Shown: positions 9,965-64,000 of the stretch, piece after piece | Layout of the letters: the number at the start of each line of letters is the position of its first letter | How positions within the stretch are numbered: position 1 is the first letter of the stretch | Source: Blastomonas sp. SL216 | GTDB taxonomy: Bacteria > Pseudomonadota > Alphaproteobacteria > Sphingomonadales > Sphingomonadaceae | Assembly: GCA_026625625.1 (NCBI GenBank) | Contig: CP113055.1 | Coordinates: forward strand, 3,765,001-3,829,000 | DNA length: 64,000 bases | Reading direction: 5' to 3' | Made by a program: the position numbers and the translations under genes | The notes under the pieces: generated by a model | Database searches by the model: none | Told to the model about the DNA's origin: nothing | What the model saw: the letters and a program-made list of their open reading frames with translations, nothing else

Positions 9965-9968
9965 GCGG

Positions 9969-17909: not shown

Positions 17910-17985
17910 GCCGATATGCCTCTCCCCGCCCGGAATTGCGTAACCGGGCCTGTTCATCCCGGCCTAGATAAGGGGAGAGCGGTAA

Positions 17986-18032: not shown

Positions 18033-18040
18033 CATCGGTG

Positions 18041-22367: not shown

Positions 22368-24304
<1,937 letters not shown>

Positions 24305-24339
24305 GAGCCCGTGCCCGTCAGGGGAGCGTCATGGGTTAC

Positions 24340-24384
24340 GCCCATTCCGGGCGGAAAACCGGTTCCCACTTTTCCTGAATGGGC
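24340..24384 (-). repeat. Intergenic hairpin between ligK and ligU
   Basis: Outer arms GCCCATTC (24340-24347) and GAATGGGC (24377-24384) enclose GGAAAA (24353-24358) and TTTTCC (24369-24374), so one long imperfect stem-loop can form in the ligK-ligU mRNA, 4 bases behind the ligK stop codon. The inner sequence (GGAAAACCGGTTCCCAC) looks like a repeat seen in many alphaproteobacterial genomes. It may be a processing or attenuation element. Confidence 0.6.
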
Positions 24385-24388
24385 TTGG

Positions 24389-25060: not shown

Positions 25061-25148
25061 GGCCATGCTCCTTGTTGTGCCGCCGTGCCCGCGAGGCTGC
25101 CATCCATGCCAATCCAACTTGTGGACGCGCAATAAGTTTTTGCTATGT

Positions 25149-26363
25149 ATGCTGCCAATGATCGAGCCGTTCGACCTGAACCTCCGGCATCTGCGCGCGC
25201 TTGTCAGCGTCGTGGCGCTGCGCAGCCTCAACCGCGCGGCAGAGGCGGCGGGGCTCTCTCAACCGGCGTTGACGCAAGGCATGGCCAAGCTGGAGCGGCA
25301 ACTGGGCGTGTTGCTCTTCGACCGGCATTCGGGCGGGGTCGAGCCGACCCTTGCGGGCGAAGCCCTGGCCGAACGCGTCGAGCGGGCCTTTGTCCATCTG
25401 GCCGCTGCGGTGCGCAGGCCGGGAAGGGCAGGTGCGCGTGGCTTTTCCCGCCCCGAACAGCTGATGACCGGTACCCAGCTACAGGCGTTCCTGCATTTTG
25501 CCGAAGCCCAGGGTTTTGCCGGGGCCGCGCTGGCGAGCGGCCTGTCGCAGCCGGGCATCCACCGCGCGGTGCGCGAGCTGGAGCAGATCAGCGGGCATGC
25601 GCTGGCCGAGCGGCGCGGGCGCGGCATGGTGCTGACCCCGGCGGGCCGGGCGATGGCGCGCGGCGTGCGTCTGGCTGCGGGCGAGCTTTCCGCCGGGATC
25701 GCAGAGGCGCTGGGCGAGGCGCACCCTGCCACGCGCATCGCCATCGGCGCAATGCCGCTCAGCCGCGCGCTCGTCGTGCCGCGAGCCATCGCGCACTTCC
25801 TGCGCGATTGCCCCGGCACCGTGGTCGATGTCATCGAAGGATCGTGGCGCGAGCTGGTCGATCCGCTGCTCGACGGGGTCATCGACCTGATGGTCGGTGC
25901 GCTGCGCGATGCGCCGCCCGACGGGATCGAGCAGGTGCCGCTGTTCACCGATCGCCTGGCGGTGTTCGCGCGCAAGGGCCACCCGCTGGCCGGGCGGCGA
26001 GTGGCGCTGCCCGAACTGCAGGCGCAATCCTGGGTGGTCGGCCCCCAGGGCACGCCGCTGCGCGCGCACTGGCAGGCGCTGTTCAGCGGTGATCCGCCGC
26101 CGGTGCCGGTGGAATGCGGATCGGTGATGGTGATCCGCGGGCTGGTGATGCAGAGCGATCTGCTGACATTGCTGTCGCCCGACCAGATCGCGGTCGAGCT
26201 TGAAACGCAGATGCTGGTGCGGATCGATGTCGATCTGCCCGGCAGCGTGCGGACGATCGGCCTGACAACGCGGCGCGGTTGGCGGCCGACGGCAGCGCAG
26301 CAGCGGCTGGTCGATCTGATCCGCCAGGCCTCGCTGGAAACCAGACTTCACGAAAACCAATAG
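25149..26363 (+). CDS. ligR: LysR-type regulator with two N-terminal winged helices
   Basis: Regulator of about 404 residues, longer than the usual 300. A first LysR helix-turn-helix ([33 protein letters not shown]) is followed at about residues 105-160 by a second, degenerate one ([35 protein letters not shown]), then the ligand domain. From memory GalR and LigR proteins of gallate/protocatechuate clusters have this build. It sits between the two divergent lig operons and should activate them in response to a pathway intermediate. An ATG at 25158 is the alternative start. Confidence 0.85.
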
Positions 26364-26417
26364 GTAGCCCGGCAATTGGATTGGTAGCGGTGACAAGTCC
26401 TCGCCTAGGCCGGAGTC

Positions 26418-27281
26418 ATGACGTTCAACGCGACCTTTATTGGCTTTGGCGAGGCGGGCCAGGCATTTGCGCTGCCCGGTGCGCGCGCCTTTGATCGCAA
26501 GACCGACAGTCTGGGCGAACGCGACGCGATGCTGTCCGCCTATGCCGCAGCTGGCGTGCAGGGCGAGGATGACGTCGCCACCGCGCTGGCCGAGGCTGAG
26601 GTCGTGCTGTGCCTGGTGACCGCCGATCAGGCCGTGGTGGCTGCCGGGGCTTATGCCTCCATGCTCAGGCCCGGAACCCTGTGGCTCGACATGAACAGCG
26701 TCGCCCCGGCCTCCAAGGCTGAGGCCGCGACGATGGTGGAGGCAGCCGGCGGGCGCTATGCGGATGTCGCGGTGATGGCTCCGGTGCTGCCGCAGCGCCG
26801 CGCGGTTCCGCTGCTGGTCTCCGGACCGCATGCCAGCGCCGCTGCAGACGCGCTGGAGGCGCTCGACTTTACCCGGATTTCCATCGCCGGAGACGCGATC
26901 GGCCAGGCCTCGGCGATCAAGATGATCCGGTCGGTCATGGTCAAGGGGCTGGAAGCGCTGAGCGCCGAATGTGCGCTTGCCGCCTCGCGCGCGGGCGTGC
27001 TCGATGCGGTGACCGCCTCGCTCGATGCCAGCTGGAAGGAGCAGGGCTGGGCCGAGCGGTTCGACTATAATCTCGACCGGATGATGGCGCACGGGTTGCG
27101 CCGCGCCGCCGAGATGGAAGAGGTTGCAGCAACGCTGGCCGATCTGGACATCGACCCGCTGATGACGCGCGGCACGATTGCCCGCCAGCGGGCGATCGGC
27201 GCGCTCGGTCTCACCCCGCCCGATGGCCTCGACGCCAAGCTGACATCACTCGACACCCTCGTCTCGAAGAGAACTGCATGA
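26418..27281 (+). CDS. NAD(P)-binding DUF1932 protein in the lig operon
   Basis: Protein of 287 residues: an N-terminal 6-phosphogluconate-dehydrogenase-like Rossmann domain (FIGFGEAGQAF near residue 6-16) and a C-terminal helical DUF1932 domain (about 185-260). The fold fits a beta-hydroxyacid dehydrogenase. It overlaps ligJ (ATGA). None of the known steps of the PCA 4,5-pathway needs it, so it may reduce or oxidise a side product such as an oxo acid or act on a gallate-derived compound. Role unknown. Confidence 0.82.
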   Translation: MTFNATFIGFGEAGQAFALPGARAFDRKTDSLGERDAMLSAYAAAGVQGEDDVATALAEAEVVLCLVTADQAVVAAGAYASMLRPGTLWLDMNSVAPASKAEAATMVEAAGGRYADVAVMAPVLPQRRAVPLLVSGPHASAAADALEALDFTRISIAGDAIGQASAIKMIRSVMVKGLEALSAECALAASRAGVLDAVTASLDASWKEQGWAERFDYNLDRMMAHGLRRAAEMEEVAATLADLDIDPLMTRGTIARQRAIGALGLTPPDGLDAKLTSLDTLVSKRTA

Positions 27282-28303
27282 CCCTGATCATCGATTGCCA
27301 CGGCCATTATACGGTCCTGCCCAAGGCGCATGACGCCTGGCGCGAGGAGCAGAAGGCCGCGTTCAAGGCTGGAACACCATGCCCGCCGTACCCCGAAATT
27401 TCCGATGACGATATCCGCGAGACGATCGAGGCCAACCAACTGCGCCTGATCAAGGAGCGCGGTGCGGACCTGACGATCTTTTCCCCTCGCGCCTCGGCCA
27501 TGGCGCCGCATGTCGGCGACGAGGCGATGGCGCGCGAATGGGCGCGGCGCTGCAACGACCTGATCGCGCGCGTTGTCGGCCTGTTTCCGGAAACCTTTGT
27601 CGGCGTGTGCATGCTGCCGCAAAGCCCCAAGGCCGACATGGCGGGCTCGATCGAGGAACTCGAACGCTGCGTGACCGAACTCGGCTTTATCGGCTGCAAC
27701 CTCAATCCCGATCCGGGCGGCGGCCATTTCCAGCATCCGCCGCTCACCGACCGCTTCTGGTACCCGTTCTACGAGAAGATGGTCGAGCTGAACGTTCCGG
27801 CGATGATCCATGTCTCGGGCAGCTGCAACCCGGCGATGCACGCCACCGGCGGCTATTATATCGCAGCCGATACCATCGCCTTCATGCAGCTGCTGGAAGG
27901 CGACCTGTTCGCCGACTTCCCGACGTTGCGCTTCATCATCCCGCATGGCGGCGGCGCGGTTCCCTATCACTGGGGGCGCTACCGGGGCCTTGCCGACATG
28001 CTGAAAAAGCCGGCGCTCGACACGCACCTGATGAACAACATCTTCTTCGACACCTGCGTCTATCACCAGCCAGGCATCGACCTGCTCGCCGATGTGATCG
28101 ACAACAAGAACATCCTGTTCGGCAGCGAGATGGTCGGCGCGGTGCGCGGCATCGATCCCACCACCGGCCATTATTTCGACGATACCAAGCGCTATGTCGA
28201 CGCGCTCGAGATCAGCGATGCCGAGCGGCACATGATCTTCGAAGGCAATGCCCGCCGCGTCTTCCCCCGGCTTGATGCCCTTTTGAAGGAGCGCGGATTG
28301 TGA
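27278..28303 (+). CDS. ligJ: 4-oxalomesaconate hydratase
   Basis: Amidohydrolase-2 fold protein of 341 residues, the same length I recall for LigJ of Sphingobium sp. SYK-6. It adds water to the (tautomerised) oxalomesaconate to give 4-carboxy-4-hydroxy-2-oxoadipate. Metal-site features: DCHGHYTV at residues 6-13, IHVSGSCNP in the middle, and the FGSEMVGAVRG motif late. It overlaps both neighbours by 4 bases. Confidence 0.94.
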   Translation: MTLIIDCHGHYTVLPKAHDAWREEQKAAFKAGTPCPPYPEISDDDIRETIEANQLRLIKERGADLTIFSPRASAMAPHVGDEAMAREWARRCNDLIARVVGLFPETFVGVCMLPQSPKADMAGSIEELERCVTELGFIGCNLNPDPGGGHFQHPPLTDRFWYPFYEKMVELNVPAMIHVSGSCNPAMHATGGYYIAADTIAFMQLLEGDLFADFPTLRFIIPHGGGAVPYHWGRYRGLADMLKKPALDTHLMNNIFFDTCVYHQPGIDLLADVIDNKNILFGSEMVGAVRGIDPTTGHYFDDTKRYVDALEISDAERHMIFEGNARRVFPRLDALLKERGL

Positions 28304-28707
28304 GCCATCTCGACATTCACGCCTATCTGGCCGAGTTCGAGGATATTCCCGGCACGCGCGTGTTCACGGCCGCGCGCGCACGCCAGGGCTATCATCTCAA
28401 CCAGTTCGCGATGAGCCTGATGAAGCCGGAGAACCGCGAGCGTTTCAAGGCCGATGAGCGCGCCTATCTGGACGAATGGGCGATATCGGAAGAGGCCAAG
28501 CAGGCGGTGCTGGCGCGCGATTACAACGCGCTGCTCGATATCGGCGGCAACATCTACTTCTTGTCCAAGCTGTTTTCCACCGACGGCATCGCCTTCGCGC
28601 AGGCGGTCAGCACGATGACCGACATGAGCTGGCCCGAATACCGCCAGATGATGCTCGACGGCGGCCGCTCTCCGCAAGGCGTACGCTCGATCAGGGAGGG
28701 ACGATAG
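28300..28707 (+). CDS. ligA: Protocatechuate 4,5-dioxygenase alpha subunit
   Basis: Small helical subunit of 135 residues that closes the active site of the LigB subunit. The start is GTG at 28300, overlapping the ligJ stop (GTGA), with AAGGAG 9 bases upstream. Family sequence: a central LNQFAMSLMKPENRERFKADE helix pair, then AVLARDYNALLDIGGNIYFL. It ends directly before the ligB ATG. Confidence 0.94.
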   Translation: MSHLDIHAYLAEFEDIPGTRVFTAARARQGYHLNQFAMSLMKPENRERFKADERAYLDEWAISEEAKQAVLARDYNALLDIGGNIYFLSKLFSTDGIAFAQAVSTMTDMSWPEYRQMMLDGGRSPQGVRSIREGR

Positions 28708-29547
<840 letters not shown>

Positions 29548-39464: not shown

Positions 39465-40967
39465 ATGGCCATGAAAATCGAGCGGCAGCCCGCAATCCGG
39501 ACCAGTTTGCAGCCCAGCAATCACCCCTATCTGACCGGCGCCTGGACCCCGCAATATGAGGAGGTCAACGCCTTCGACCTCGAGGTGATCGAGGGCGCGA
39601 TCCCCGAGGATCTGGACGGCATCTACCTTCGCAACACCGAAAACCAGGTGCACCAGCCGCTGGGCAAATATCACCCGTTCGATGGCGACGGCATGATCCA
39701 CCAGATCGATTTCCGCCGCGGCAAGGCGCATTATCGCAACCGTTTCGTCCGCTCGCGCTGCTTTCAGGCAGAGCAGGAGGCGGGCGGATCGCTCTGGGGC
39801 GGCCTGCAGGACAAGCCCAGCCTGTCGCGCCGCCCCGGTTTCGGCGCGCATGGCAGCCTGAAGGACAGCGCATCGACCGACATCATCGTGCATGCGGGGC
39901 AGGCGATCGCCACCTTCTACCAGTGCGGCGAAGGCTATGTGATGGATCCCGAAACGCTGGAGCAGCTGGGCCCTGCGCCCTGGGTGCCGATCGACGGCAT
40001 CTCCGCGCATCCCAAGGTCGATGAGCGCACCGGCGAGCTGCTGTTCTTCAACTATTCCAAGCACGCACCCTTCATGCATTATGGCGTGGTCGACGCCGAG
40101 GGCAGGCTGAAAAGCTATAGCCCGGTGCCGCTGCCGGGGCCGCGCCTGCCGCACGACATGGCGTTCAGCGAGAACTGGGCGATCCTCAACGACTTCCCGG
40201 TCTTCTGGGACGAGGAACTGCTCGAGCGCAACATCCACGCGGTGCGGCTCCACGATCTGCCGTCGCGCTTTGCGCTGGTGAACCGGCACGACCCCTCGGA
40301 CATCCGCTGGTTCGATGCCGCGCCGACCTATGTGCTGCACTGGCTGAACGCCTGGGAAGAGGGCGAAGAGGTGGTGCTGGACGGCTATTTCCAGAACAAC
40401 CCGACGCCCGATCCGCTGGAGCATGACGGCGGACTTGGCGCGATGATGGCGCATATCGACGAGAACAGCTTCAAGCCGACTCTTCACCGCTGGCGCTTCA
40501 ACCTGCGCACCGGCGAGACGCGCGAGCAGTCGCTGGGCGACCAGCTGGTCGAGTTCGGCATGATCAACCAGCGCTATCTGGCGCAGCCCTATCGCTATGC
40601 CTATTCGACCACGACCCGGCCCGGCTGGTTCCTGTTCAACGGCTTCGTCAAGCATGACCTCGCCACCGGCAAATCGACCACGATCACGCTGCCCGAAGGT
40701 CGCTATGCCTCCGAAGCGCCGTTCGCCCCGCGCGTTGGCGCGCAGGACGAAGATGACGGCTATCTGGTGAGCTTCGTGATCGACGAGAACCAGGGCACGT
40801 CAGAGTGCATCATCATCGATTGCAAGCGCTTTGCAGAGGGTCCGATCTGCCGCATCGCGCTGCCGCACAAGATCAGCAGCGGCACCCATTCGCACTGGGT
40901 GGAGCGTGAAGTGCTGGAACGCGACAAGGCCGCGCGGCGCGACCGGATGATGGCGGCGGCGGCCTGA
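39465..40967 (+). CDS. Carotenoid-oxygenase-family dioxygenase, lignostilbene type
   Basis: Non-haem iron dioxygenase of 500 residues that would cut an interphenyl C=C bond into two aldehydes. The four iron His are H182 (ISAHPKV), H230 (LPHDMAF), H292 (YVLHWLNAWEEG) and about H475 (GTHSHW). K133 falls near the Lys134 that binds the phenol in lignostilbene dioxygenases, if the alignment holds. In Sphingobium SYK-6 I recall lsdA next to ligI; here it is in another operon in the same region. Starts 39465 and 39471 are both possible. Resveratrol-like stilbenes or lignostilbenes are likely substrates. Confidence 0.85.
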   Translation: MAMKIERQPAIRTSLQPSNHPYLTGAWTPQYEEVNAFDLEVIEGAIPEDLDGIYLRNTENQVHQPLGKYHPFDGDGMIHQIDFRRGKAHYRNRFVRSRCFQAEQEAGGSLWGGLQDKPSLSRRPGFGAHGSLKDSASTDIIVHAGQAIATFYQCGEGYVMDPETLEQLGPAPWVPIDGISAHPKVDERTGELLFFNYSKHAPFMHYGVVDAEGRLKSYSPVPLPGPRLPHDMAFSENWAILNDFPVFWDEELLERNIHAVRLHDLPSRFALVNRHDPSDIRWFDAAPTYVLHWLNAWEEGEEVVLDGYFQNNPTPDPLEHDGGLGAMMAHIDENSFKPTLHRWRFNLRTGETREQSLGDQLVEFGMINQRYLAQPYRYAYSTTTRPGWFLFNGFVKHDLATGKSTTITLPEGRYASEAPFAPRVGAQDEDDGYLVSFVIDENQGTSECIIIDCKRFAEGPICRIALPHKISSGTHSHWVEREVLERDKAARRDRMMAAAA

Positions 40968-53718: not shown

Positions 53719-55032
53719 TCAGAAGCGGTTGACCAGATTCTCGCAATATTCCTGCCGTCCCGATCGCGGGGCAGGGGCGCTGTTCGATACCACCGCGCGG
53801 TCGGCGATCTGGGCGAGTGTCGTGCCCTCGGCATGGATCATCCGGCCCAGCTCGCCCTGCCAGCCGGCATAGCGTTCGGCGCGGAATGCCTCTAGCCGCC
53901 CATCCTCGATGATCGCGGCGGCGCGCAGCAGCGCCCGGGCAATCGTATCGACCCCGCCAATATGGCCGTGGAACAGATCGACGGCATCGATCGACTGGCG
54001 GCGCACCTTGGCGTCGAAGTTGAAGCCGCCATTGCCCAGGCCCCCGGCGCGCAGCACCTCCAGCATGGCCAGGGTGAGTTCCTCGACCGAATTGGGGAAC
54101 TGGTCGGTATCCCAGCCATTTTGCGGATCGCCGCGATTGGCATCGATCGACCCCAGGATGCCGAGCGCGCGGGCCATTGCGATCTCGTGCTCGAAGGTAT
54201 GGCCGGACAAGGTGGCGTGGTTCGCCTCGATATTGACCTTGACCTCGTTCTCCAGCCCGAAGCGCTTGAGGAACGCGTAGACGGTCTGCGTGTCGAAATC
54301 ATATTGGTGCTTGGTCGGCTCGTGCGGCTTGGGCTCGATCAGTATGGTGCCGGTAAAGCCGATGCGGTGCTTGTGATCGACGACAAGCGACAGGAAACGC
54401 CCGAAATTCTCCTGCTCGGTACCGATCTCGGTGTTGAGGATCGAATCATAGCCCTCGCGTCCGCCCCACAGCACATAGTTGGCGCCGCCAAGCCGGTGTG
54501 TTGCCTCCAGCGCATCGCGCACCTGCGCGGCCGCCCAGGCATAGACTTCGGGATCGGGATTGGTCGCCGCGCCCGCCATATAGCGCGGGTGGCTGAACAG
54601 ATTGGCCGTGCCCCAGAGCAGCTTGCGGCCATGCTGCGCCTGCAGTTGCTCGAGATGGTCGACGGCTTGCGCAAAACTGCTGCGAAAATCGCCGATGGTC
54701 TCGGCATCGGCCATCACGTCGACATCGTGGAAGCAATAGAAGGGCAGGTCGAGCTTCTCGACAAAGGCCAGCGCCGCCTCGCGCTTTGCGGCGGCGTTCG
54801 CAGCGTCCATCGGGCCCTGCAGCCAGGGGCGGTTGAAGGTGCCCGCGCCGAACACGTCGCTGCCAGGCCAGCAGAAGCTGTGCCACATGCAGACGGCAAA
54901 GCGCAGGTGATCCTCCATGCGCTGGCCCATCACCACGCGGTCCTTGTCATACCAGCGATAGGCAAGATCGTTGGAACTCTCCGGCCCTTCGAAGCGGACG
55001 GTGTCGAATGCGGCGAAATATTCGGCGGACAT
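53719..55032 (-). CDS. xylA: Xylose isomerase
   Basis: Metal-dependent aldose isomerase of 437 residues that turns D-xylose into D-xylulose; it may also take glucose. Signature stretches: YCFHDVD with the catalytic His, and [15 protein letters not shown] with metal ligands. Length matches the class II enzymes. It is the third gene of the leftward operon GMC oxidoreductase-xylB-xylA, whose promoter faces the C-glycoside deglycosidase genes. Confidence 0.97.
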
Positions 55033-55044: not shown

Positions 55045-56484
55045 TCAGATCGTTCTTATGGCGGCATAGGCAGAGCGGAACCGGGCGAGCTTCGGGGCCA
55101 GGCGCTCGGCCAGCGCGGGATCGGGATTGATGCTCTCGCGGACCGGCGGACGGGTGCAGATGGTCGCCGGATCGGCGCCGGTGGCCGCGATCTGCGCCAG
55201 CCGTGCCGCGCCCAGCGCCGGGCCGACTTCGCCGCCGTCGAGATAATCGAGCCGTACGTTTAGCGCGGCCGCGATGATCCGGCCCCACCAGGTCGAGCGT
55301 GCGCCGCCACCGATGACAGACAGGCTCTCGATGCGGGTTCCGGCGGCCTGCAGCGCAGCGAGGCCATCGGCATGGGCAAAGGCGACGCCCTCCAGCACGG
55401 CTGCGGCCATGCGCCCCGCGCTGCTGTCATGGCTGAGCCCCAGAAATGCGCCGCGCACATGCGGGTCGTTATGCGGGGTGCGTTCGCCCGACAGATAGGG
55501 CAGGAACAGCTCGCTGCCCTGGCCAGCGCCCTCGGCCTCTGCCGCAGCGAGCATGCCGGGCACGCTGAGGTGCATCATCGCTGCCGCCCAATCGAGACAG
55601 ACGGCGGCAGACAGGTGCACGCTCATCTGGTGCCAAAGCCCCGGCAGGCAGTGGCAAAAGGCGTGCACCGCGCCATCGGGATTGGCGCGCAGCGTGTCGG
55701 TGGCGACAAAGATCACCCCCGATGTGCCGAGCGACAGCAGCGCATCGCCATCGCGCACCACGCCGACGCCGACCGCACCCGCCGCATTGTCGCCCGCGCC
55801 GCCCGCAACGGGCACGCTGGCCATGCCCCAGCGCGCGGCGACCTCGGCGCGGAGCGTCCCGCCGATTTCGCTGCCCTCGACCAGACGCGGCATGTGCCCC
55901 CGCGTCAGCCCGGTCGCGGCGAGCAGTTCGTCCGACCAGTCGCGTCTGGCGACATCGAGCCAAAGCGTGCCCGCGCTGTCGGACATGTCGCTGACCCTGT
56001 CACCGGTCATCAGCAGCCGGATATAGTCCTTGGGCAGCAGCACATGCCGCGTGTCTGCGAAGATCTGAGGCTCGTGCGCGCGCACCCAGGCGAGCTTGGG
56101 CGCGGTAAAGCCGGGCATCGCGATATTGCCCGCGATGGCGCGCAAATCAGGCACGGCAGCCTCCAGCGCGGCGCATTCGGCATGGCTGCGGCCATCGTTC
56201 CACAGGATGGCGGGGCGCAATGGCCGGTCATCTGCGCCCAACAGCGTCGCGCCGTGCATCTGCCCGGCCAGGCCCACGCCGTCCACCTGCGCGCGCAGGC
56301 CGGCTGGCAGCGCGAGGACGGCCGTCTCGGTCGCGCGCCACCATTCTGCCGGGTCCTGTTCCGACCATAGCGGCTGCGGGCGCTGCACGTCGAGCGCGGC
56401 GCTCGCCTGGGCGGCGACATGACCATCCGGGTGCAGCAGAACCGCCTTGACCCCGGAGGTGCCGATGTCGATGCCCAGATACAT
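55045..56484 (-). CDS. xylB: Xylulokinase
   Basis: FGGY sugar kinase of 479 residues; MYLGIDIGTSGVKAVLLHPDG at the N terminus binds ATP phosphate and the GAGDNAAGAVGVG segment is typical of xylulokinase, with the HAFCHCLPGLWHQM substrate region behind. It phosphorylates D-xylulose for the pentose phosphate pathway. It lies 12 bases before xylA and 4 bases behind the GMC gene. Confidence 0.95.
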   Translation of the reverse strand: MYLGIDIGTSGVKAVLLHPDGHVAAQASAALDVQRPQPLWSEQDPAEWWRATETAVLALPAGLRAQVDGVGLAGQMHGATLLGADDRPLRPAILWNDGRSHAECAALEAAVPDLRAIAGNIAMPGFTAPKLAWVRAHEPQIFADTRHVLLPKDYIRLLMTGDRVSDMSDSAGTLWLDVARRDWSDELLAATGLTRGHMPRLVEGSEIGGTLRAEVAARWGMASVPVAGGAGDNAAGAVGVGVVRDGDALLSLGTSGVIFVATDTLRANPDGAVHAFCHCLPGLWHQMSVHLSAAVCLDWAAAMMHLSVPGMLAAAEAEGAGQGSELFLPYLSGERTPHNDPHVRGAFLGLSHDSSAGRMAAAVLEGVAFAHADGLAALQAAGTRIESLSVIGGGARSTWWGRIIAAALNVRLDYLDGGEVGPALGAARLAQIAATGADPATICTRPPVRESINPDPALAERLAPKLARFRSAYAAIRTI

Positions 56485-56488
56485 CGCG

Positions 56489-58105
56489 TTATCCGCGCGC
56501 GTCTTCCAGGATCAGCTCGGAGGCGCGCTGCGCCAGAGCGATCGCAGGGCCGTTGGTGTTGCCCGAAACAGGGCTGGGCATGATCGAGCAATCGACCACG
56601 CGCAGCCCGGCCAGGCCATGCACCCGGCAGCGCGCATCGACCACGGACCCTGCGGGATCGGTGCCCATCGAACAGGTGCCGGTTCCGTGCAGCCCGCATT
56701 CGGTCATCTTGCGCACCTCGGCGACCAGTGCGTCTCCGTCCTTTACTGCGGCGCCAGGCATCCGCTCATCGCCGATGAACGGAGCGAGCGCGGGCATGCT
56801 GGCGAGCTTGCGGAACAGGTGGAACAGCTCCATCGCCTTTTGCTGGTCATACGGGTCGCTCCACATCTTCGGATCGACCACCGGCGCGTCGCGATGGCTG
56901 GGCGAGGTAAGGGTGACCGTCCCCCGGCTCTTCGGGCGAAGGTGATAGCCTGAAAAGGTGAGGCCGGGCCGGTCGGTCAGCGGGCTGCCGGGACGCTCAG
57001 CCATCTCGTTGATCGTGCGCATTGCAAAGGGTGCGGCGGCGACCTGGAATTCGGGCCAGTCGTCCAGGCCCTCGGTCGAGATCAGCCCGGTGATCGGCAT
57101 GCCGACGCGCGCCAGCGGCCCGGTGCGGGTCAGGAAATAGCGGATCGCGTTGCGGTACAGCCGCCAGCCCAGAAACTCCCGATTGTTGCCGGGATTGTTG
57201 TGCAGGTCGAACGACACGCCCATTTTCTGGTGATCGGCGAAATTCTGGCCGACCGCGGCGAGGTCATGCGTCACCGGGATGCCCAGCCGCTGCAGCTCGG
57301 CACCCGGGCCGATACCCGACAGCTGGAGAAGCTGCGGCGAACCATATACGCCCGCGCTGACAATGACCTCGCCCGCCTGGTGTGCCTCTTCCACACCGTC
57401 GCGCTCACACACCACGCCGGTGACGCGGCCGTCCTGCACGGTCAGCCGCGAGACGGCGACAGGGTGGATGACGGTCAGGTTAGGGCGGCTGCGGATCGCC
57501 GCGACAAAGGCCTCATAGGTCGAATGGCGCTGGCCCGCGCGGTCGACGGTATATTGCGATCGGCCTGCGCCGGTGATGCCGGGGGCAGTGATATCGCTCA
57601 CCCAGGGCATGCCGCCTTCCGCGAAGGCACCGGCCAGCGCATCGAAGACCGGGCCCTTGTAATCGGACGGGGTGATCTGCTGTTCGCCATCATGGCCGCG
57701 CCCCGGATGCGCGCCGGGCGCGCGGTAGCTTTCGACCTGCCGGATGCAGCGCGCCATCTCGTCCCAGCCCCAGCCGCTCAGCCCCATGGCTGCCCAGCCG
57801 TCATAATCACCGGGCATGCCGGGCAGATACCAGGTGCCGTTGATCGCCGAAGAGCCGCCCAGGCCGCGGCCATAGGCGTGCATTTCCTGCCGCCGTCCGG
57901 GCTGCTGCGCAACCGGATAGGCACGGAAATAGGCGGGGTTGCCCATGATCTTCACAAACCCGCCCGCCATCAGGATGAATGGATGGTCGTTGCGCCCGCC
58001 ATCCTCGATCAGCAGCACCTGATGCCGCGGATCGGCGCTCAGCCGGTTGGCGAGCACGCAGCCCGATGAGCCTGCGCCCACAATGATATAGTCGAACCGG
58101 GCCAA
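56489..58105 (-). CDS. GMC family FAD oxidoreductase, candidate glycoside oxidase
   Basis: Flavoprotein of 538 residues of the choline-dehydrogenase branch: GAGSSG at 10-15, GRGLGGSSAINGT at 79-91, catalytic pair H473 (GLHGTGTCSMG) and N518 (SGNTNGP). It oxidises an alcohol to a carbonyl. It is divergent from the C-glycoside deglycosidase pair and shares palindromes with it. Deglycosidases of this kind need a 3-keto sugar, and GMC-fold oxidases supply it in known carminate degradation, so oxidation of the glycosyl C3-OH is the best guess. It does not look like the pyranose-oxidase branch, so an aryl alcohol is an alternative. Confidence 0.85.
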   Translation of the reverse strand: MARFDYIIVGAGSSGCVLANRLSADPRHQVLLIEDGGRNDHPFILMAGGFVKIMGNPAYFRAYPVAQQPGRRQEMHAYGRGLGGSSAINGTWYLPGMPGDYDGWAAMGLSGWGWDEMARCIRQVESYRAPGAHPGRGHDGEQQITPSDYKGPVFDALAGAFAEGGMPWVSDITAPGITGAGRSQYTVDRAGQRHSTYEAFVAAIRSRPNLTVIHPVAVSRLTVQDGRVTGVVCERDGVEEAHQAGEVIVSAGVYGSPQLLQLSGIGPGAELQRLGIPVTHDLAAVGQNFADHQKMGVSFDLHNNPGNNREFLGWRLYRNAIRYFLTRTGPLARVGMPITGLISTEGLDDWPEFQVAAAPFAMRTINEMAERPGSPLTDRPGLTFSGYHLRPKSRGTVTLTSPSHRDAPVVDPKMWSDPYDQQKAMELFHLFRKLASMPALAPFIGDERMPGAAVKDGDALVAEVRKMTECGLHGTGTCSMGTDPAGSVVDARCRVHGLAGLRVVDCSIMPSPVSGNTNGPAIALAQRASELILEDARG

Positions 58106-58146
58106 GCCCCTCTCCCCTGGCTGCTCTGCTGAACGAGAGCGCTAAA

Positions 58147-58166
58147 TCTAGAACTGTTGTTCTGAT
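58147..58166. promoter_or_regulatory. TetR-type operator, copy 1 (GMC side)
   Basis: TCTAGAACTGTTGTTCTGAT carries the core TAGAA-N6-TTCT shared with the copies at 58204-58223 and 61663-61682. It lies 42-61 bases upstream of the GMC gene. Confidence 0.6.
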
Positions 58167-58203
58167 TTTTTCAACACCAGCCTTGACCCGCTGTCAAGCC
58201 ACA

Positions 58204-58223
58204 ATTAGAAACATCATTCTAAT
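58204..58223. promoter_or_regulatory. TetR-type operator, copy 2 (deglycosidase side)
   Basis: ATTAGAAACATCATTCTAAT lies within a perfect inverted repeat AATTAGAA-N6-TTCTAATT (58203-58224), 17 bases upstream of the deglycosidase beta gene. A possible promoter TTGACC (58183-58188) with TAGAAA (58206-58211) overlaps it. Confidence 0.75.
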
Positions 58224-58240
58224 TAAGCGAGGAGAGAAGG

Positions 58241-58621
58241 ATGCTTCCGGTTGAACGTATCATCGGAGAAGAGGGGCTGAGCGCCACGCCCGAAGGGCTG
58301 CGTCTGGCGATGCGGCTGCCCTGGTACCGCTCGCTGCCATTTTCCATCGTCGAGATCGACCAGGTCCGTATCGACGGCCAGCCAGTCGATCTGTCCGACG
58401 CCAGGGTCGAATTCGATGGCATGGTCTGGCCGCTCAGCGAACTGGGCGAGCAGACCAATGCCTTCTGGTTCGTGCGCGACAGCGCCTTTCTGCACCTTCC
58501 CGGCCAGACTGCAGCGCCCGGAAGCGAGCACGAGGTGGCGCTGAGCATGTTCATCAGCCCGCCCTACATCCCCGGAATGAAGCGCGCGAACACGCAGACG
58601 CAAACGCTCTGCGTCGCCTGA
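58241..58621 (+). CDS. C-glycoside deglycosidase beta subunit (DUF6379)
   Basis: Protein of 126 residues, all-beta, with the family pattern LRLAMRLPWYRSLPFSIVEIDQVRIDGQPV (about 20-49), FDGMVWPLSEL, and a late ISPPYIPGM. It matches what I remember of the small subunit of C-glycoside deglycosidases (CarC, DgpC), which makes a jelly-roll that completes the active site of the alpha subunit. GAGGAGAGAAGG precedes the ATG, and the alpha gene follows after 13 bases. The pairing of this fold with a TIM-barrel neighbour is the main support. Confidence 0.8.
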   Translation: MLPVERIIGEEGLSATPEGLRLAMRLPWYRSLPFSIVEIDQVRIDGQPVDLSDARVEFDGMVWPLSELGEQTNAFWFVRDSAFLHLPGQTAAPGSEHEVALSMFISPPYIPGMKRANTQTQTLCVA

Positions 58622-58634
58622 AGGAAGCCCTGAT

Positions 58635-59636
58635 ATGACCAGCACCAGCACCGGCCCGCAGACGGGCGTCACCCTCTATTCGTTCACCAATGCCTGGCTC
58701 AACCGCAAATATGAGCTCGACGGCCTGCTCCACGAGGTCGCCCGGCGCGGCATGGGCCCGAATATCGAGATCATCGGGTTCCAGAATTTCCGCGAATTTC
58801 CCGATGTGTCGGATGAATTCGCCGAAAAGTTCAAGGCGATGATGGCCGATGCGGGGCTCAACGCCACGTCCTGTGCGATCAATTCGGACCGTTTCCTGCG
58901 TCCCGGCGCACAGCCGATCGACGATGCGACGCTGGTCGAATATCACAAGCGCCAGCTGCGTTCCGCCAAGAAGATGGGGTTCGGCCTGGTGCGCTATCAG
59001 TTCGCGCTGCCGGTCGAGCTGCTGCCCCAGATCGCGCCTTATGCCGAAGAGCTCGACATCCGCATGGGCGTGGAAGTTCATGCGCCGATGTGGGCCGGGC
59101 ACCCGGCTGTACAGGCCTATGGCGAGATGTATGACAGGCTCGACACGCCCTATCTCGGCTGGATCCCCGATTTCGGCGGCACGGCGAGCCGCATTCCCGA
59201 ATCGATGCTCAACGCCGCGCGCGAGAAAGGCGCGAAGGAGAGCCTGCTCGACAAGCTGAAAGAGGTCTGGCTGGAGCCGGGCATGAGCCATGAAAAGGCC
59301 GGTCGACTGCGCGAATGGGCGCTGAAGGAAGGGCATGCGCCGGACCATATCCAGGCCGCCAGCCTCGCCTTTTTCATCCTGTCGAACCATGATCCCAAGA
59401 GCTGGGCCGCGCTGGTCGACCGGACCATCCATATCCATGGCAAATTCTACGGCATGGGCGATGATGGCCGCGAGGAAGCGATCGATTACGAGACCATCCT
59501 GCCGCTGTTCCGCGATGGCGGCTTTACCGGCACGCTGGTGAGCGAATGGGAAGGCCATGCATATCTGCCCGATGATGGCTTCGATCAGGTCGAAAAGCAC
59601 CAGGCGATGTGCCGCCGCATCTTCGCAGGCCACTGA
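58635..59636 (+). CDS. C-glycoside deglycosidase alpha subunit (TIM barrel)
   Basis: Xylose-isomerase-like TIM-barrel protein of 333 residues. Likely divalent metal ligands are E147 (GVEVHAP), D179 (IPDFGG), H268 (HIHGKF) and E304 (SEWEGHAY). Known relatives (CarB, DgpB) cut the C-C bond between a 3-keto sugar and an aromatic aglycone, as in carminate, puerarin or orientin breakdown. Next to the DUF6379 subunit this role is more likely than plain sugar isomerisation. AAGGAAG precedes the start and a strong terminator follows. Confidence 0.8.
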   Translation: MTSTSTGPQTGVTLYSFTNAWLNRKYELDGLLHEVARRGMGPNIEIIGFQNFREFPDVSDEFAEKFKAMMADAGLNATSCAINSDRFLRPGAQPIDDATLVEYHKRQLRSAKKMGFGLVRYQFALPVELLPQIAPYAEELDIRMGVEVHAPMWAGHPAVQAYGEMYDRLDTPYLGWIPDFGGTASRIPESMLNAAREKGAKESLLDKLKEVWLEPGMSHEKAGRLREWALKEGHAPDHIQAASLAFFILSNHDPKSWAALVDRTIHIHGKFYGMGDDGREEAIDYETILPLFRDGGFTGTLVSEWEGHAYLPDDGFDQVEKHQAMCRRIFAGH

Positions 59637-59715: not shown

Positions 59716-60168
59716 TCAGAACATCGGATGCTTGTTGGCCGACTGGGCCGGGATCGGTTGCAGCACATCCCAGTGTTCCACGATCTTGCCATCCTTGAGC
59801 CGGTAGATATCGGCCACGGCAGCCCCCGGGGTAGCGGGATCACCGCGCCCGAACAGGTGGATCGCGGCCAGATCACCATCGACCAGGATGCGCTTGACCT
59901 CGAACCGGGCATCGGGGTTTGCGAACATCGGTGCCAGCGCCTCGATCGCGGCGTCGCGCCCGTCGGCAATGCCGGGATTATGCTGGATGTAATCGCGCGC
60001 GACGTGCTTTTCGAACGCCTGGCGGACATCGCGCTGTGCGTAGAACAGCCTGGCGAAATCCTCGACAATGGCGCGGTTGGCTTCAGTCGGGCTGGGTGGC
60101 GGTGCAGCGCTGCAGCCAGACATCAGCGCTGCGGCCATCGCGATTGTCATCCATTTCGTCTGCATCAT
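59716..60168 (-). CDS. SnoaL-like lipoprotein
   Basis: Protein of 150 residues with a lipoprotein signal (AAALMSGC, lipid Cys near residue 19) and a SnoaL-like domain at about 30-145 with HNPGIADGRDA and the VADIYRLKDGKIVEHWDVLQPIP tail typical of the predicted-SnoaL group. It is membrane-anchored in the periplasm. It overlaps the transporter stop (ATGA), so it belongs to the sugar-uptake operon and could act on an oxidised sugar or glycoside there. Function not known. Confidence 0.85.
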   Translation of the reverse strand: MMQTKWMTIAMAAALMSGCSAAPPPSPTEANRAIVEDFARLFYAQRDVRQAFEKHVARDYIQHNPGIADGRDAAIEALAPMFANPDARFEVKRILVDGDLAAIHLFGRGDPATPGAAVADIYRLKDGKIVEHWDVLQPIPAQSANKHPMF

Positions 60169-61619
60169 GCTTCCTCCTGAGCCGCGCTGCGCAGCGCATC
60201 CACTTTGGTCCGGTCGATCCGCAAGGTGCTGACCAGCCAGGCCATTGCGCCGCCCGCCAGCGTTACCAGCGCCAGCACGAACCAGGCGAGCGCGTCGATC
60301 TTGTCCTGCGGCATCGCCTCCACTGACAGCCCGACGGGAAAGTCGATCAGTCCCAGGAAAGATCCCGCCAGCAGGGCCACCGCGCCGCTGCCCAGTTGCA
60401 GGCCGATGAACATGAAGCTCGCCACCAGCCCCTGGGCGGGGCGGCCGGTATCATAGGCGTGCTCGTCGCCGATCTCGTACGTCACGACGTTGAACGGCAC
60501 GACATACAGGCCATAAGCCAGCCCACCCAGAAACCGCAGCCCCGCGATCAGCCCGCCGATCGCGGCGGTGCCTGCTGCCGGGGCGAGTCCGCCCAGCGGC
60601 AGCAATACCGCCAGCGCCTGCACCGCGAAAAAGCCGCAGAGCCCCAGCACCATCGCCTGGCGGGTGGAGAAAAGCCTGAGGAACAGCGGCGCCAGCACCA
60701 TTGCCAGCAGCGAGCCTGCGGTCGCGGCCATCAGCAGCCGCGGCGTCCAGCTCTGGTCGAGCTGCCAGAAATAGGTGGCGAGGTGCAGCGACAACTGGTT
60801 GATCACCGAATTCACGAACAGCACCAGAAACGCGACCATCAGCAGCTTGCCGATATTTGGGGTGGTGCGCACCGCCTGCACCAGCCGCATCAGCACCGCG
60901 ATCGGACCCGAAGCCTGCGCGCGGTCCGGCTCGAAGCTCTCCTGCGCCTCGATCTGGCGGGCACGGCGATAGGTACCCAGCGCGCCCAGCAGCATCAGTG
61001 TGCCGCCCAGCGCGGCGACGAACAGGCCGAAGCCCGGATAGGGTGCAGGGTTGAGCTGCGGCTTGGGAAAGCCCGGCGCGGCGACGAAGAACAGCTCGAA
61101 CGCGACGGCGGGAACTGTGAGGATGACCAGCTGGTTGCCGACATTGCGCAGCACCGCGACCAGCCGCCGCTCGACCGTGTCGCTGGTCAGTTCACCGCCC
61201 AGCGCATAGGCCGGTACCGTCCAGAACGAGATGCCGCAGCGCGCCAGCAGGCCCCAGCCGAGCAGCCAGGCCAGGATCTGCATCTGGGCCATGCCGGCAG
61301 GGGGGGCGAAGACCATGGCGATCCCGATCGTGAAGGGCAGGATCGCGGCAAACATCAGCGTATGCCGCCTGCCCAGCCGGGTTCCGTGCAGCCGGTCCGA
61401 AAACGCGCCGATCCACGGATCGACCAGCGTATCGAACAGGATGATCACCGCGATGGCGACGCCGATCAGCCATCCGGACAAGCCCACGACCTGCGCGTAG
61501 AAGAACAGCACGAACGCGTCCCAGGCGAAGGACTTCACCAGTTCGGGCATCGCGCAGACCATCCAGGCCAGACGCTGCGGCCAGGACAGGCGCTGCGCGA
61601 TCTTGGGGGCGGACGCCAT
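60165..61619 (-). CDS. GPH-type sugar/glycoside:cation symporter (MFS)
   Basis: Inner-membrane transporter of 484 residues with about 12 hydrophobic segments. The DTLVDPWIGAFSDR stretch after helix 2 and RLGRRHTLMF loop are marks of the glycoside-pentoside-hexuronide symporter group. AGGAGAAGAGGC precedes the ATG. It lies directly behind a copy of the shared palindrome and the TetR gene, so it likely imports the glycoside or the sugar handled by the deglycosidase and xylAB genes. Confidence 0.92.
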   Translation of the reverse strand: MASAPKIAQRLSWPQRLAWMVCAMPELVKSFAWDAFVLFFYAQVVGLSGWLIGVAIAVIILFDTLVDPWIGAFSDRLHGTRLGRRHTLMFAAILPFTIGIAMVFAPPAGMAQMQILAWLLGWGLLARCGISFWTVPAYALGGELTSDTVERRLVAVLRNVGNQLVILTVPAVAFELFFVAAPGFPKPQLNPAPYPGFGLFVAALGGTLMLLGALGTYRRARQIEAQESFEPDRAQASGPIAVLMRLVQAVRTTPNIGKLLMVAFLVLFVNSVINQLSLHLATYFWQLDQSWTPRLLMAATAGSLLAMVLAPLFLRLFSTRQAMVLGLCGFFAVQALAVLLPLGGLAPAAGTAAIGGLIAGLRFLGGLAYGLYVVPFNVVTYEIGDEHAYDTGRPAQGLVASFMFIGLQLGSGAVALLAGSFLGLIDFPVGLSVEAMPQDKIDALAWFVLALVTLAGGAMAWLVSTLRIDRTKVDALRSAAQEEA

Positions 61620-61662: not shown

Positions 61663-61682
61663 ATTAGAATCAGAACTCTAAT
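61663..61682. promoter_or_regulatory. TetR-type operator, copy 3 (transporter promoter)
   Basis: ATTAGAATCAGAACTCTAAT has the same ATTAGA-N8-TCTAAT frame as the copy at 58204-58223. It lies 44 bases upstream of the transporter start and 16 bases behind the TetR stop. Confidence 0.75.
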
Positions 61683-61698: not shown

Positions 61699-62385
61699 TC
61701 AATCCGCGCGCAGATAGGCCAGGCACATCCGTGCCAGTTCGCGCTTCATCTGGTTCCAGTCATAGGCATGCGCGGCCTCGCCGCTCGACCCCAGGCTCAG
61801 CTGCCGGGCGAGGGTGGCAAAGATGACATGATAGCCCGATTGCGCCTTCACCTCGTGATCGGCTGGATCATCGCCGCCAAATTCATCGGCATGGGCCAGC
61901 ATGGCTTTGGTCGCGTCCTCTTCGGCGCGAAAGGCATATTGCTTGCCAGGGGCGGCCACCAGCGGGTCATGTTCGGCGCGCATCATGGTCAGGCGCAGCA
62001 ACGGGGCGTGCTTGCGCAGAACTTCGGCATAGCCTTCGACATATTCGAAGACGAAGCTCGCCAGGTCGGGGCATTCGGCGCTCAGCCGCTCGACCAGGGT
62101 CGATTCCTCGGCGGACTGCTCTTCCAGCGCCTCGGCGATGACACCGCGGACCAGATTGTCCTTGCTTTCGAAGCGCAGATAGATCGATCCGATCGAAACC
62201 TGTCCGCGTTCGCTCACTTCCTGCAGCGTGAATTCCTCGCTGCCGCGCTCCAGCATCAGCTCGCGCGCCGCTTCCAGCATGCGTTTTAGCGAGGCGAGCG
62301 AGCGGCCCTGTTGCGGCTTGCGGCTGACATCGGCCACCGCAAACCCCTTGGCCGCATCCTTCTTCTTCTTCACGCTGCCGGGCAT
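61699..62385 (-). CDS. TetR family regulator of the glycoside genes
   Basis: Regulator of 228 residues; a basic N-terminal stretch (KKKKDAAKG) precedes a TetR helix-turn-helix (FTLQEVSERGQVSIGSIYLRFESKDNLV at about 52-79), followed by a helical ligand domain. It sits upstream of the transporter in the same direction, with a palindrome between them that recurs in the deglycosidase/GMC promoter region. It is thus the likely repressor of all three transcripts, released by a glycoside, aglycone or sugar. Confidence 0.88.
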   Translation of the reverse strand: MPGSVKKKKDAAKGFAVADVSRKPQQGRSLASLKRMLEAARELMLERGSEEFTLQEVSERGQVSIGSIYLRFESKDNLVRGVIAEALEEQSAEESTLVERLSAECPDLASFVFEYVEGYAEVLRKHAPLLRLTMMRAEHDPLVAAPGKQYAFRAEEDATKAMLAHADEFGGDDPADHEVKAQSGYHVIFATLARQLSLGSSGEAAHAYDWNQMKRELARMCLAYLRAD

Positions 62386-62513: not shown

Positions 62514-63419
62514 TCAAGGTTTGCGGTGCAGCATGCCGTTCACGTCAAGCCAGCGGTGAAAGCTGTAAATCCAGTCGGCGCTGCTGGTGCCAGCTCGGCC
62601 CAGGCCAAAGCCATGTCCGCCATTCTGCAGCAAGTGGAACTCGACCGGCGCGCCGGCCTTGCGCCACCCTTCGACCAGCGCAAAGCCCTCGCGCCCGAAC
62701 AGCGGATCGTCGGCCGCGATCAGCGCGAACATTGGCGGGGCCTTGGCGGGCACCGGGCTCGGGGCCTGCCGGCCATAGATCGGGGCGACAAAGGCCGGAC
62801 GCGCGTCGGGTGCATCGGCGGCCGTCACCGATAGCGCGAGAAAGGCTCCGGCAGAAAAGCCCATCATTCCGGTGCGCGCGGGATCGATGCCATAATCTGC
62901 GGCATGCGTCAGCACGTGGCGCAGCGCAGCCTGACCGTCGGCCAGCGCCTCTGCCGGCGTATCGGCAGGTGGCCGAAAGCTTGCCGGCCCCTTGCCGGTG
63001 CGCACGGCAACCAGCTCGCGCCGGAAGGTAAGGGGATCGGCCGGGGTAGGCAGCACCCGGTATTTCAGCACGAAGGCAGCGATGCCGTGATCGGCCAGCC
63101 AGCGTGCAACACGAAAGCCTTCATCCTCGATCGCCAGCCCCAGAAACCCGCCGCCCGGCGCGACGATTACCGCAGCGCCCGTGGCCGATTGCGGCCTGGG
63201 CAGGAAGGGCGTCAGCGTCGCCTCGGCGACATTGCGCACCTGCAGGGCGCCATCCTGGCGAAACCACTCCTCGCTCGGCTGGCCCGGACCCGTACCCAAG
63301 CGGATCACGCCGGGATAGTCGGCGGGCGCAGCGTCGCTGAAGCGGAATTCGGGCAGCGCCTGCGCGAACGCCGGGCACGCGAGCACGAGCGCAAGCGATG
63401 CGGCGACGGCACGGATCAT
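62514..63419 (-). CDS. Secreted alpha/beta hydrolase (acetyl-xylan-esterase-like)
   Basis: Esterase-like protein of 301 residues with a signal peptide (MIRAVAASLALVLACPAFAQ). Oxyanion region PGGGFLGLAIEDEG, nucleophile Ser in GFSAGAFLA (about residue 180), Asp in IAADDPLFG and His in NGGHGFGLG. It would remove acetyl or other acyl groups from sugars or glycosides in the periplasm. It overlaps the stop of the upstream MFS gene (ATGA). Confidence 0.9.
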   Translation of the reverse strand: MIRAVAASLALVLACPAFAQALPEFRFSDAAPADYPGVIRLGTGPGQPSEEWFRQDGALQVRNVAEATLTPFLPRPQSATGAAVIVAPGGGFLGLAIEDEGFRVARWLADHGIAAFVLKYRVLPTPADPLTFRRELVAVRTGKGPASFRPPADTPAEALADGQAALRHVLTHAADYGIDPARTGMMGFSAGAFLALSVTAADAPDARPAFVAPIYGRQAPSPVPAKAPPMFALIAADDPLFGREGFALVEGWRKAGAPVEFHLLQNGGHGFGLGRAGTSSADWIYSFHRWLDVNGMLHRKP

Positions 63420-64000
63420 GCGCGCACAGCCTGTGGCCGCGTGGCCATGCCGGTCAGCATCGCGGCGGCCGCCCCGCCCAATGCCACGCAGCCTGCCATC
63501 AGGAACGCGCCCTGCATCGAACCGACGCTGGCGTCGATCACATGCACCAGCCGCGGCGATTGCGACTGGCCCAGGAAGAAGGCCGCGGTCCACATGCCCA
63601 TGCCGGTACCGCGATGGTGGAAATCGAATTTGGTCTGCGTCCAGGTGATCAGCGACGGCACGGCCATGCCTGCTGCAGTCTGCTGCACGATCAGCGCCGC
63701 CGCCATGATCGCGGGTGTCGTCGCGAGCCCCATCCCGGCCAGGCCCAGCCCCATCAGCGTCAGGAAGGTGCCAAGCTGCACCGTGTTCTTCTGGTTGGAG
63801 AGCAACTTGAACAGTCCGGCCCCGGCCAGGATGAAGAACTGCGGGATGAAGATGATCGCGGCATAGTTCTGGGGCTCGGTCACGCCCACTTCGCGGAACA
63901 CCAGCGCGCCGTTGATGATGAACACATAGTAGAGCATCGAACAGAACAGGGTGACCGATGCAATCTGGACCAGGCTGATCCAGGGAAAGGGGGTCTTGGG
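63416..64000 (-). CDS. MFS transporter, 5' end outside window
   Basis: C-terminal 194 codons of a major-facilitator transporter; the frame is open through the right edge. At least five hydrophobic segments are visible (around LVQIASVTLFCSMLYYVFI, AAIIFIPQFFILAGAGLFKL, FLTLMGLGLAGMGLATT, AFLMAGCVALGG), with a short hydrophilic loop MTGMATRPQA at the C terminus. It resembles the EmrB/QacA-type drug:H+ antiporter or aromatic acid transporters. The operon with the esterase suggests transport of an acylated plant compound, or export. Confidence 0.85.
   Translation of the reverse strand, partial: PKTPFPWISLVQIASVTLFCSMLYYVFIINGALVFREVGVTEPQNYAAIIFIPQFFILAGAGLFKLLSNQKNTVQLGTFLTLMGLGLAGMGLATTPAIMAAALIVQQTAAGMAVPSLITWTQTKFDFHHRGTGMGMWTAAFFLGQSQSPRLVHVIDASVGSMQGAFLMAGCVALGGAAAAMLTGMATRPQAVRA

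Follow-up and report, generated by a model that had tools for sequence, protein, structure and literature searches.

What does the two-gene unit cgdB1-cgdA1 of Blastomonas sp. SL216 do, and what is the role of the flavoprotein and pentose genes that face it? The unit lies in a 64,000-nucleotide stretch (positions 3765001-3829000 of the 3.86-Mb single-contig genome), which we analysed as a whole and call the window; window coordinates are used throughout. C-glycosides, in which a very stable C-C link joins the sugar to the plant compound, resist hydrolases, and the original prediction for this locus had read the two genes, a DUF6379 protein followed by a TIM barrel, as a C-glycoside deglycosidase (CGD) divergent from a GMC flavoprotein gene, xylB and xylA on the minus strand. 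Coordinates and family profiles confirm this layout, with the divergent starts of GMC-xylB-xylA and cgdB1-cgdA1 separated by a gap of 135 bp (58106-58240). To judge from the sequences, the pair (CGD1) probably encodes a 3-keto-glycoside beta-eliminase acting on plant C-glycosides, perhaps also on O-glycosides, in one regulated pathway with a paralogous CGD. The central features are:

53719..55032, minus strand: xylA, xylose isomerase (TIGR02630, 642 bits)
55045..56484, minus strand: xylB, xylulokinase (TIGR01312, 540 bits), 4 bp downstream of the GMC gene
56489..58105, minus strand: GMC oxidoreductase, 538 aa with a TTG start, placed in the choline/alcohol-oxidase branch; putative oxidase partner
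58149..58164: operator site A, TAGAACTGTTGTTCTG, between the divergent GMC and cgdB1 genes, 44 bp ahead of GMC
58206..58221: operator site B, TAGAAACATCATTCTA, preceding cgdB1
58241..58621, plus strand: cgdB1, CGD beta subunit (PF19906/DUF6379), 126 aa
58635..59636, plus strand: cgdA1, CGD alpha subunit, TIM barrel, 333 aa, with E147, H149, D179, H268, K270, E304 and E306

The profile search proposed earlier for the beta subunit identified cgdB1 as a member of PF19906 (CGDB) with 49.5 bits (cut-off 27.6, E-value 4.2e-13). Its best solved relative is 7dnm_B (AgCarC2, E-value 5.4e-11), that of cgdA1 is 7dnm_A (E-value 2.6e-45), and all 8 PDB sequence matches of cgdA1 at E-value <= 0.01 are CGD chains. 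The two genes are 13 bp apart, and a beta orthologue adjoins alpha in all 35 related loci of our comparison set; 34 of these yield an alpha sequence (that of L068 is truncated), which with the window makes 35 aligned sequences. In all 35 the metal-site residues E147, D179, H268, K270 and E304 and the catalytic H149 and E306 (His149 and Glu307 of AgCGD2) are invariant, which agrees with the four positions named in the original prediction (E147, D179, H268, E304) and adds H149, K270 and E306 to them. All 35 also keep Tyr17 of AgCGD2 (Y15) and carry F247 in place of its Asn248, which sets them outside the subgroup of AgCGD2-like specificity, a specificity feature that does not define the family. 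One locus (L049) contains a natural beta-alpha fused frame, for which the predicted structure (pLDDT 72, pTM 0.57, i.e. moderate, built from 20 alignment rows) retrieved only CGD chains as its 16 best Foldseek matches. This frame, at 9596-10990 of the locus from Novosphingobium sp. MW5, resembles the single-chain CGD of Microbacterium testaceum (8qrz), and could also be due to a sequencing error. By its sequence, cgdB1-cgdA1 is a CGD-family pair whose active site is intact.

The CGD1 alpha subunits form their own sphingomonad clade on a long branch. The tree comprises 36 rows (17 of 35 cgdA1, 9 of 19 sequences of the second-type alpha cgdA2, 4 solved chains and 6 of 17 further loci, L018-L034, the other 11 giving no row under the motif filter); AgCGD2 and A2_L058 are long branches in it, the placement of which is unsure. 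The closest named loci by alpha identity are those of Sphingomonas ursincola KR-99 (96%) and of two Blastomonas records (95% and 93%). The paralogous CGD is found in the same genome, where the second pair starts 7.4 kb beyond the end of cgdA1: a genome-wide profile search gave 107 bits for cgdB2, 3.1 kb past the window end, as compared to 49 bits for cgdB1, and the closest solved relative of cgdA2 is the Deinococcus aerius CGD (E-value 8.7e-100). Among 396 genomes of the same order, a second alpha of this kind, with roughly 27-33% identity to cgdA1, is present in all 13 that have CGD1, and 9 further genomes have only second-type alphas.

The tie between the GMC gene and the pair turned out to be stronger than the earlier note, which had seen the two facing each other, could know. 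GMC is divergent beside CGD1 in 33 of 33 informative named loci (33 of the 35 fetched), L053 being uninformative, with a sequence that begins 27 bp before cgdB1, and L068 being left out of the linkage counts. The latter had looked like a counter-example and was rejected as a chimera, as its Nitrospira contig joins the pair at the beginning of cgdB1 and departs from it at residue 179 of cgdA1; we regard this contig of a metagenome-assembled Nitrospira genome as an assembly chimera with a spliced-in sphingomonad CGD fragment. At a threshold of at least 60% identity, alpha is found in 13 of the 396 genomes and GMC in 13 of 396, and the two sets are identical (a comparison that ignores phylogeny, the 13 genomes representing 5 genera); the distance between the genes is 0.52-0.65 kb in 12 of the 13. 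The next relatives of this GMC (48-50% identity) are found near other CGD pairs in two genomes, G343 and G372, and in a third, G221, with no CGD in the 10 kb examined; in G343 the 50% relative stands in a row of genes that also comprises IolE-like, GFO, MFS-like and CGD genes. GMC is thus a real partner of CGD1.

Its assignment within the GMC family is a separate matter. The best PDB matches are a chloramphenicol-inactivating oxidoreductase, choline dehydrogenase and alcohol oxidase, the match to the choline dehydrogenase model NF002550 reaches 1.2e-113, below the curated cut-off, and the top Foldseek matches of the predicted fold (pLDDT 80, pTM 0.86; 23 of 34 rows used) are alcohol oxidases, choline oxidase and HMF oxidase, including 8rpf. 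The pyranose oxidase model TIGR02462 gives this GMC only 23.4-23.9 bits (curated cut-off 544.9), as compared to 213.8 and 209.8 bits (5e-63 and 8e-62, both likewise below the cut-off) for the GMCs of the CGD operons of Arthrobacter and a Deinococcus plasmid. The Arthrobacter protein is a very close match of 7qf8, which we take to be a bacterial G3Ox. The best TIGR02462 score anywhere in the Blastomonas genome is 56.7 bits, from a partial match at 195 kb, and a tree of 16 rows separates three GMC types. On sequence evidence, GMC belongs to the choline/alcohol-oxidase branch, outside the branch of pyranose oxidases and C-glycoside oxidase (CGOx). Its 46 PDB matches at E-value 1e-20 include glucose oxidases and one pyranose dehydrogenase (4h7u, E-value 1.1e-39), sugar-oxidising members of the same branch as GMC, and no pyranose oxidase; since glucose oxidases and a pyranose dehydrogenase are among them, oxidation of a sugar seems within reach of this branch. 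Pyranose dehydrogenase acts on C2 and C3. We regard GMC as a candidate, one of several competing ones, for the oxidation of the glycoside at C3.

The genes on both sides of the window end (64000) belong to the same cluster, which the window cuts. Those past the end were called by a script using GC content by codon position, and TonB, TlpA and MFSb were named by reading:

59716..60168, minus strand: SnoaL-like protein, with an N-terminal hydrophobic stretch judged by eye
60165..61619, minus strand: MFS_2 sugar transporter, weakly GPH-like, from profile matches
61665..61680: operator site preceding the MFS_2 transporter gene
61699..62385, minus strand: TetR-family regulator, putative reader of the operator
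62514..63440, minus strand: alpha/beta hydrolase (Abhydrolase_3/BD-FAE), with a weak acetylxylan-esterase match; start uncertain
63416..64000 and on to 64630, minus strand: MFS-type transporter-like gene (MFSb), named without a family scan
64780-65931, past the window, plus strand: GFO/IDH/MocA enzyme; start uncertain
65945-67000, past the window, plus strand: IolE-like TIM barrel, from profile matches
67080-67454, past the window, minus strand: cgdB2, second CGD beta subunit
67468-68487, past the window, minus strand: cgdA2, second CGD alpha subunit; start chosen by us
between cgdA2 and 69995, past the window: SnoaL_4 protein
69995-70768, past the window, plus strand: hydroxypyruvate-isomerase-like TIM barrel
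70989-72386, past the window, minus strand: GPH symporter
72713-75067, past the window, plus strand: TonB-receptor-like gene, named by reading
76421-77053, past the window: g3dS, Gluconate_2-dh3 family, Tat signal
77072-78751, past the window: g3dL, GMC family, closest to fructose dehydrogenase

Two inverted repeats lie in the 135-bp gap between GMC and cgdB1, both of the form TAGAAN6TTCTA. Genome-wide, 17 such sites are found when up to one mismatch is allowed, of which 7 fall into the 25.1-kb stretch 53657-78751 (0.65% of the genome), with a binomial p of about 9e-12 that assumes independent sites and fixed cluster borders. A control with the pattern read backwards gave 55 matches against 17 per strand; since the reversed pattern is the commoner one, the operator sequence is not common in the genome at large, and it is the clustering that constitutes the finding. 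The seven sites precede GMC/cgdB1 (58149, 58206), MFS_2 (61665), MFSb/GFO (64666, 64774), TonB (72623) and g3dS (76347), and sites with two mismatches precede cgdA2 (68593) and GPH (72404). All 33 loci that have both genes carry a site in the gap, with one mismatch at most; elsewhere in the comparison set, sites are found before MFS2 (L035, L036, L038), MFSb/GFO (L035-L038), cgdA2 (L038, L052, L064), TonB (L061-L063) and g3dS (L053), and some lie outside the named promoters (L039, L040, L045, L065, L067). The shared operator apparently ties the GMC, CGD1, CGD2, GFO, IolE-like and g3dS-g3dL genes into one regulon, which supports the earlier idea of common regulation. The TetR gene probably encodes the regulator; in one locus, L079, a perfect site lies directly upstream of a TetR gene.

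The regulon contains a further potential oxidase. g3dS-g3dL is of the type of a FAD sugar dehydrogenase with a Tat subunit, consisting of a GMC protein that resembles fructose and glucose dehydrogenase and a Gluconate_2-dh3 subunit, and is by sequence a candidate glycoside 3-dehydrogenase. With a threshold of at least 70% identity, g3dL is found in 20 of the 22 CGD genomes and in one genome without a CGD match, which makes it the main rival of GMC for the role in C3 oxidation. A second copy of g3dS-g3dL, 52% identical, is located at 193-195 kb of the Blastomonas genome. The IolE-like protein exhibits the E-x-H, D, H-x-K, E-x-E pattern of the CGD alpha type (E186/H188, D217, H243/K245, E300/E302, read by eye), each of these residues being kept in at least 15 of 16 sequences.

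The pentose genes are close neighbours of GMC. Between the GMC stop and xylB there are 4 bp, and from this spacing xylBA should be under the GMC promoter. xylAB is beside GMC in 8 of the 33 GMC-bearing loci (L035, L036, L038, L039, L049, L051, L054, L064) and missing from 25, of which one, L043, has only 210 bp beyond GMC. The genome carries another xylA with an xylB beside it, to which the cluster XylA copies are 73.5-75.8% identical; the window XylA shares 80-96% identity with the other 8 cluster copies, as compared to 75% with the second copy of its own genome. The pentose link is specific where present and dispensable for the module.

In the pathway that we infer, the order of the steps being set by analogy, uptake of plant aryl glycosides would come first, and C3 oxidation would then fall to the divergent GMC, to g3dS-g3dL (the flavoprotein pair that includes a Tat subunit) or to both. 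The 3-keto glycoside would then be cleaved by CGD1 or CGD2. cgdA1-cgdB1 would be a divalent-metal (probably Mn) dependent alpha/beta eliminase with the active site at the subunit interface, in which H149 would take the C2 proton of the 3-keto-glycoside and the aglycone would leave by beta-elimination to give the free aglycone and a 2-hydroxy-3-keto-glycal. For the latter, the IolE-like TIM barrel may act as the hydratase, after which the GFO/IDH/MocA enzyme would carry out the reduction to the free sugar; XylAB would take up the pentose where one is released. The TetR-type repressor probably reads TAGAAN6TTCTA and would release the gene set together. CGDs are reported to cleave 3-keto C-glycosides by metal-assisted acid/base beta-elimination, with roles assigned to the individual residues (PMC8563793); one CGD (CGE) also cleaves 3-keto O-glucosides, and hydration and a Gfo-type reduction follow in Agrobacterium (PMC10628242). 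The regulon offers a candidate for every part of this scheme.

Since a CGD can also cleave 3-keto O-glucosides, C-glycosides need not be the natural substrate. The pair could instead act by elimination on 3-keto O-glycosides such as flavonoid, lignan or phenolic glucosides, the CGD fold then serving bulky aryl O-glycosides and cleaving C-glycosides little or not at all; this reading is possible but less likely than not. The CGE of the gut strain PUE cleaves 3-keto O- and C-glucosides alike, its authors ask whether the wide spread of CGDs fits the scarcity of C-glycosides (PMC10628242), and the regulon also holds the IolE-like, GFO and g3dL genes, of which relatives of g3dL and IolE occur without a CGD in one genome (G178); against it, characterised CGDs cleave 3-keto C-glycosides (PMC8563793, PMC12724307), Agrobacterium carries out the O-reaction with a single-subunit enzyme (PMC10628242), and here neither the beta subunit nor any of the catalytic residues has been lost. 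A module for C-pentosides or mixed di-C-glycosyl flavones, targets that the original prediction had considered, with XylAB taking the released pentose, appears unlikely: the position of xylBA behind GMC and the same operators, the closeness of the window XylA to the cluster copies and the conservation of xylAB in cgd1 loci as distant as L064 and Blastomonas speak for it, whereas 25 of the 33 GMC-bearing loci do without xylAB, and Q122/F123 does not tell of pentoses, as Q-W occurs in PuCGD and Q-F in the W974-1 enzyme. The reading of F123 in place of Ser124 as a filler for a missing C6 was dropped for the same Q-W in PuCGD and for Q-F in 9m3a; to our knowledge, no pentose-specific residue is known in CGDs. 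We give still less credence to the scheme in which CGD1 and its GMC would form a dedicated C-glycoside module, the choline-oxidase-branch GMC having been recruited as C3 oxidase independently of the pyranose-oxidase and GFO-type enzymes. Beside the second CGD of the same regulon, this module would enable sphingomonads to strip both sugars from mixed di-C-glycosyl flavones; CGD1 would handle the C-pentosides, and the pentose would go to XylAB. A plain sugar isomerase or epimerase with incidental homology of the beta subunit is very improbable: Pfam sees cgdA1 only as AP_endonuc_2 (28.9 bits, under the cut-off of 31.1) and NCBIfam gives neither subunit a name, but all 8 PDB sequence matches of alpha and the 16 best structure matches are CGDs, and the beta subunit is over the PF19906 threshold and adjoins alpha in every locus.

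The proposal that GMC is not the 3-oxidase, g3dS-g3dL or GFO making the 3-keto sugar while GMC oxidises another alcohol, e.g. on the aglycone, comes close to an even chance. It draws on the choline/alcohol-oxidase and HMF oxidase types among the best PDB and fold matches of GMC, on the fructose/glucose-dehydrogenase-like g3dL with its wide occurrence and its operator site before the operon (76347), and on the gut-bacterial DgpA, a GFO-type enzyme (PMC8563793); it has to contend with the exact tracking of CGD1 by GMC, the distant GMC relatives found close to other CGD pairs in two genomes of three (G343 and G372, but not G221), the CGD operons of Arthrobacter and Deinococcus, which themselves include a GMC from a different branch, and the glucose oxidase and pyranose dehydrogenase (4h7u) matches lower among the PDB hits. 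Several observations weigh against the overall interpretation of CGD1 as a 3-keto-glycoside eliminase in a common regulon. The alpha subunit shares only 99 of 326 positions with its nearest solved relative, and cgdA1 has Q, F, F and I where AgCGD2 has R123, S124, N248 and M249; because of this low identity and these replacements the substrate of AgCGD2 is not transferable, and that of CGD1 is not readable from the sequence. Three oxidoreductases compete for the C3 oxidation, and in one genome (G144) GMC lies 10.7 kb away from cgdA1. The cluster borders behind the operator p-value were chosen after the sites were seen, site 64774 overlaps the called GFO start, which may be called too early, and just upstream of the TetR gene in the Blastomonas genome no site was found at up to two mismatches. 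Finally, g3dL and IolE-like genes are both present in G178, where no CGD alpha is matched at E-value 1e-20, and therefore these two are not CGD-specific. Its gene set (C1:770250-773625) could be an O-glycoside version of the pathway.

Elsewhere in the window, LigA and LigB ring-cleavage dioxygenase genes are located at 28300-29547 and an amidohydrolase gene at 22368-23255; together (22368-29547) they are perhaps a 4,5-cleavage set of the protocatechuate/gallate type able to take aglycone fragments. A dioxygenase of the RPE65 family is encoded at 39465-40967.

As regards its significance, the breakdown of C-glycosides in the environment has, in the literature covered, been worked out in a few soil actinobacteria only. 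The sphingomonad clade adds a separate lineage, a partner oxidase of a branch not described for CGDs and two CGDs per regulon, and its operator sequence finds further pathway genes. If GMC were indeed the C3 oxidase, the same chemistry would have been recruited repeatedly from unrelated oxidoreductase branches, and the enzyme would be a new biocatalyst for C-glycosides. The notion that CGDs are known from gut bacteria and actinobacteria is correct as far as it goes and slightly too narrow, as homologues in Proteobacteria/Pseudomonadota have been reported (PMC8563793, PMC12724307) and a Deinococcus CGD has been solved. In searches of an open-licence library, with the supplementary homologue lists of these two papers outside their scope, we found no paper naming a sphingomonad CGD. 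What is new within that scope is the well-delimited clade of sphingomonad CGDs, its exact co-occurrence with a GMC from a different branch, the regulon of two CGDs and the operator belonging to it, and xylAB as an optional addition.

The orthologous locus in Novosphingobium aromaticivorans makes the question directly testable, and a review of genetic tools exists for this species (PMC12619356). Its plasmid pNL2 encodes orthologous GMC, DUF6379 and TIM-barrel proteins (SARO_RS18765/18760/18755, alpha 81.7% identical) and a second DUF6379/TIM pair (SARO_RS18735/18730); unlike in Blastomonas, no xylAB is listed in the 31-kb stretch, and DUF1080 and ThuA genes are present (at 17235-18098 and 22950-23894 of the locus L081). 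A search of the Blastomonas genome with PF06439, which we take to be DUF1080, gave no match. A gene for an apo-carotenoid cleaving dioxygenase (L081:10708-12117) adjoins the TetR-GMC-CGD locus of N. aromaticivorans.

Among the characterised systems, AgCGD2 (AgCarB2-C2 of Arthrobacter globiformis, 7dnm/7dnn) shares with CGD1 the TIM-barrel alpha and the beta subunit encoded by adjacent genes, and its E147, H149, D179, H269, K271, E305 and E307 are all matched in cgdA1, from which it differs in the overall identity and the four replaced residues given above. The Deinococcus aerius CGD (8qvc/8qvd/8umc), the closest solved relative of cgdA2, is second-best for cgdA1, which however stands in its separate long-branch clade. 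PuCGD/DgpBC, PurBC (puerarin) and CarBC (carminic acid) belong to the same family and are supplied with the 3-keto substrate by an oxidoreductase. CarA and PurA are described as FAD C-glycoside oxidases similar to each other (PMC12724307), and CGOx is placed within pyranose-oxidase sequence space (PMC10807413); in contrast to these and to the GFO-type DgpA, the Blastomonas neighbour is a GMC of the choline-oxidase branch. The GlycDH-AtOGE-AtHYD-Gfo operon of Agrobacterium, likened here by its description, resembles the pathway proposed for Blastomonas in the sequence of oxidation, elimination, hydration and reduction and in its two TIM barrels and Gfo, whereas AtOGE, unlike CGD1, is a single-subunit O-glycoside eliminase described as having no sequence similarity to CGDs (PMC10628242).

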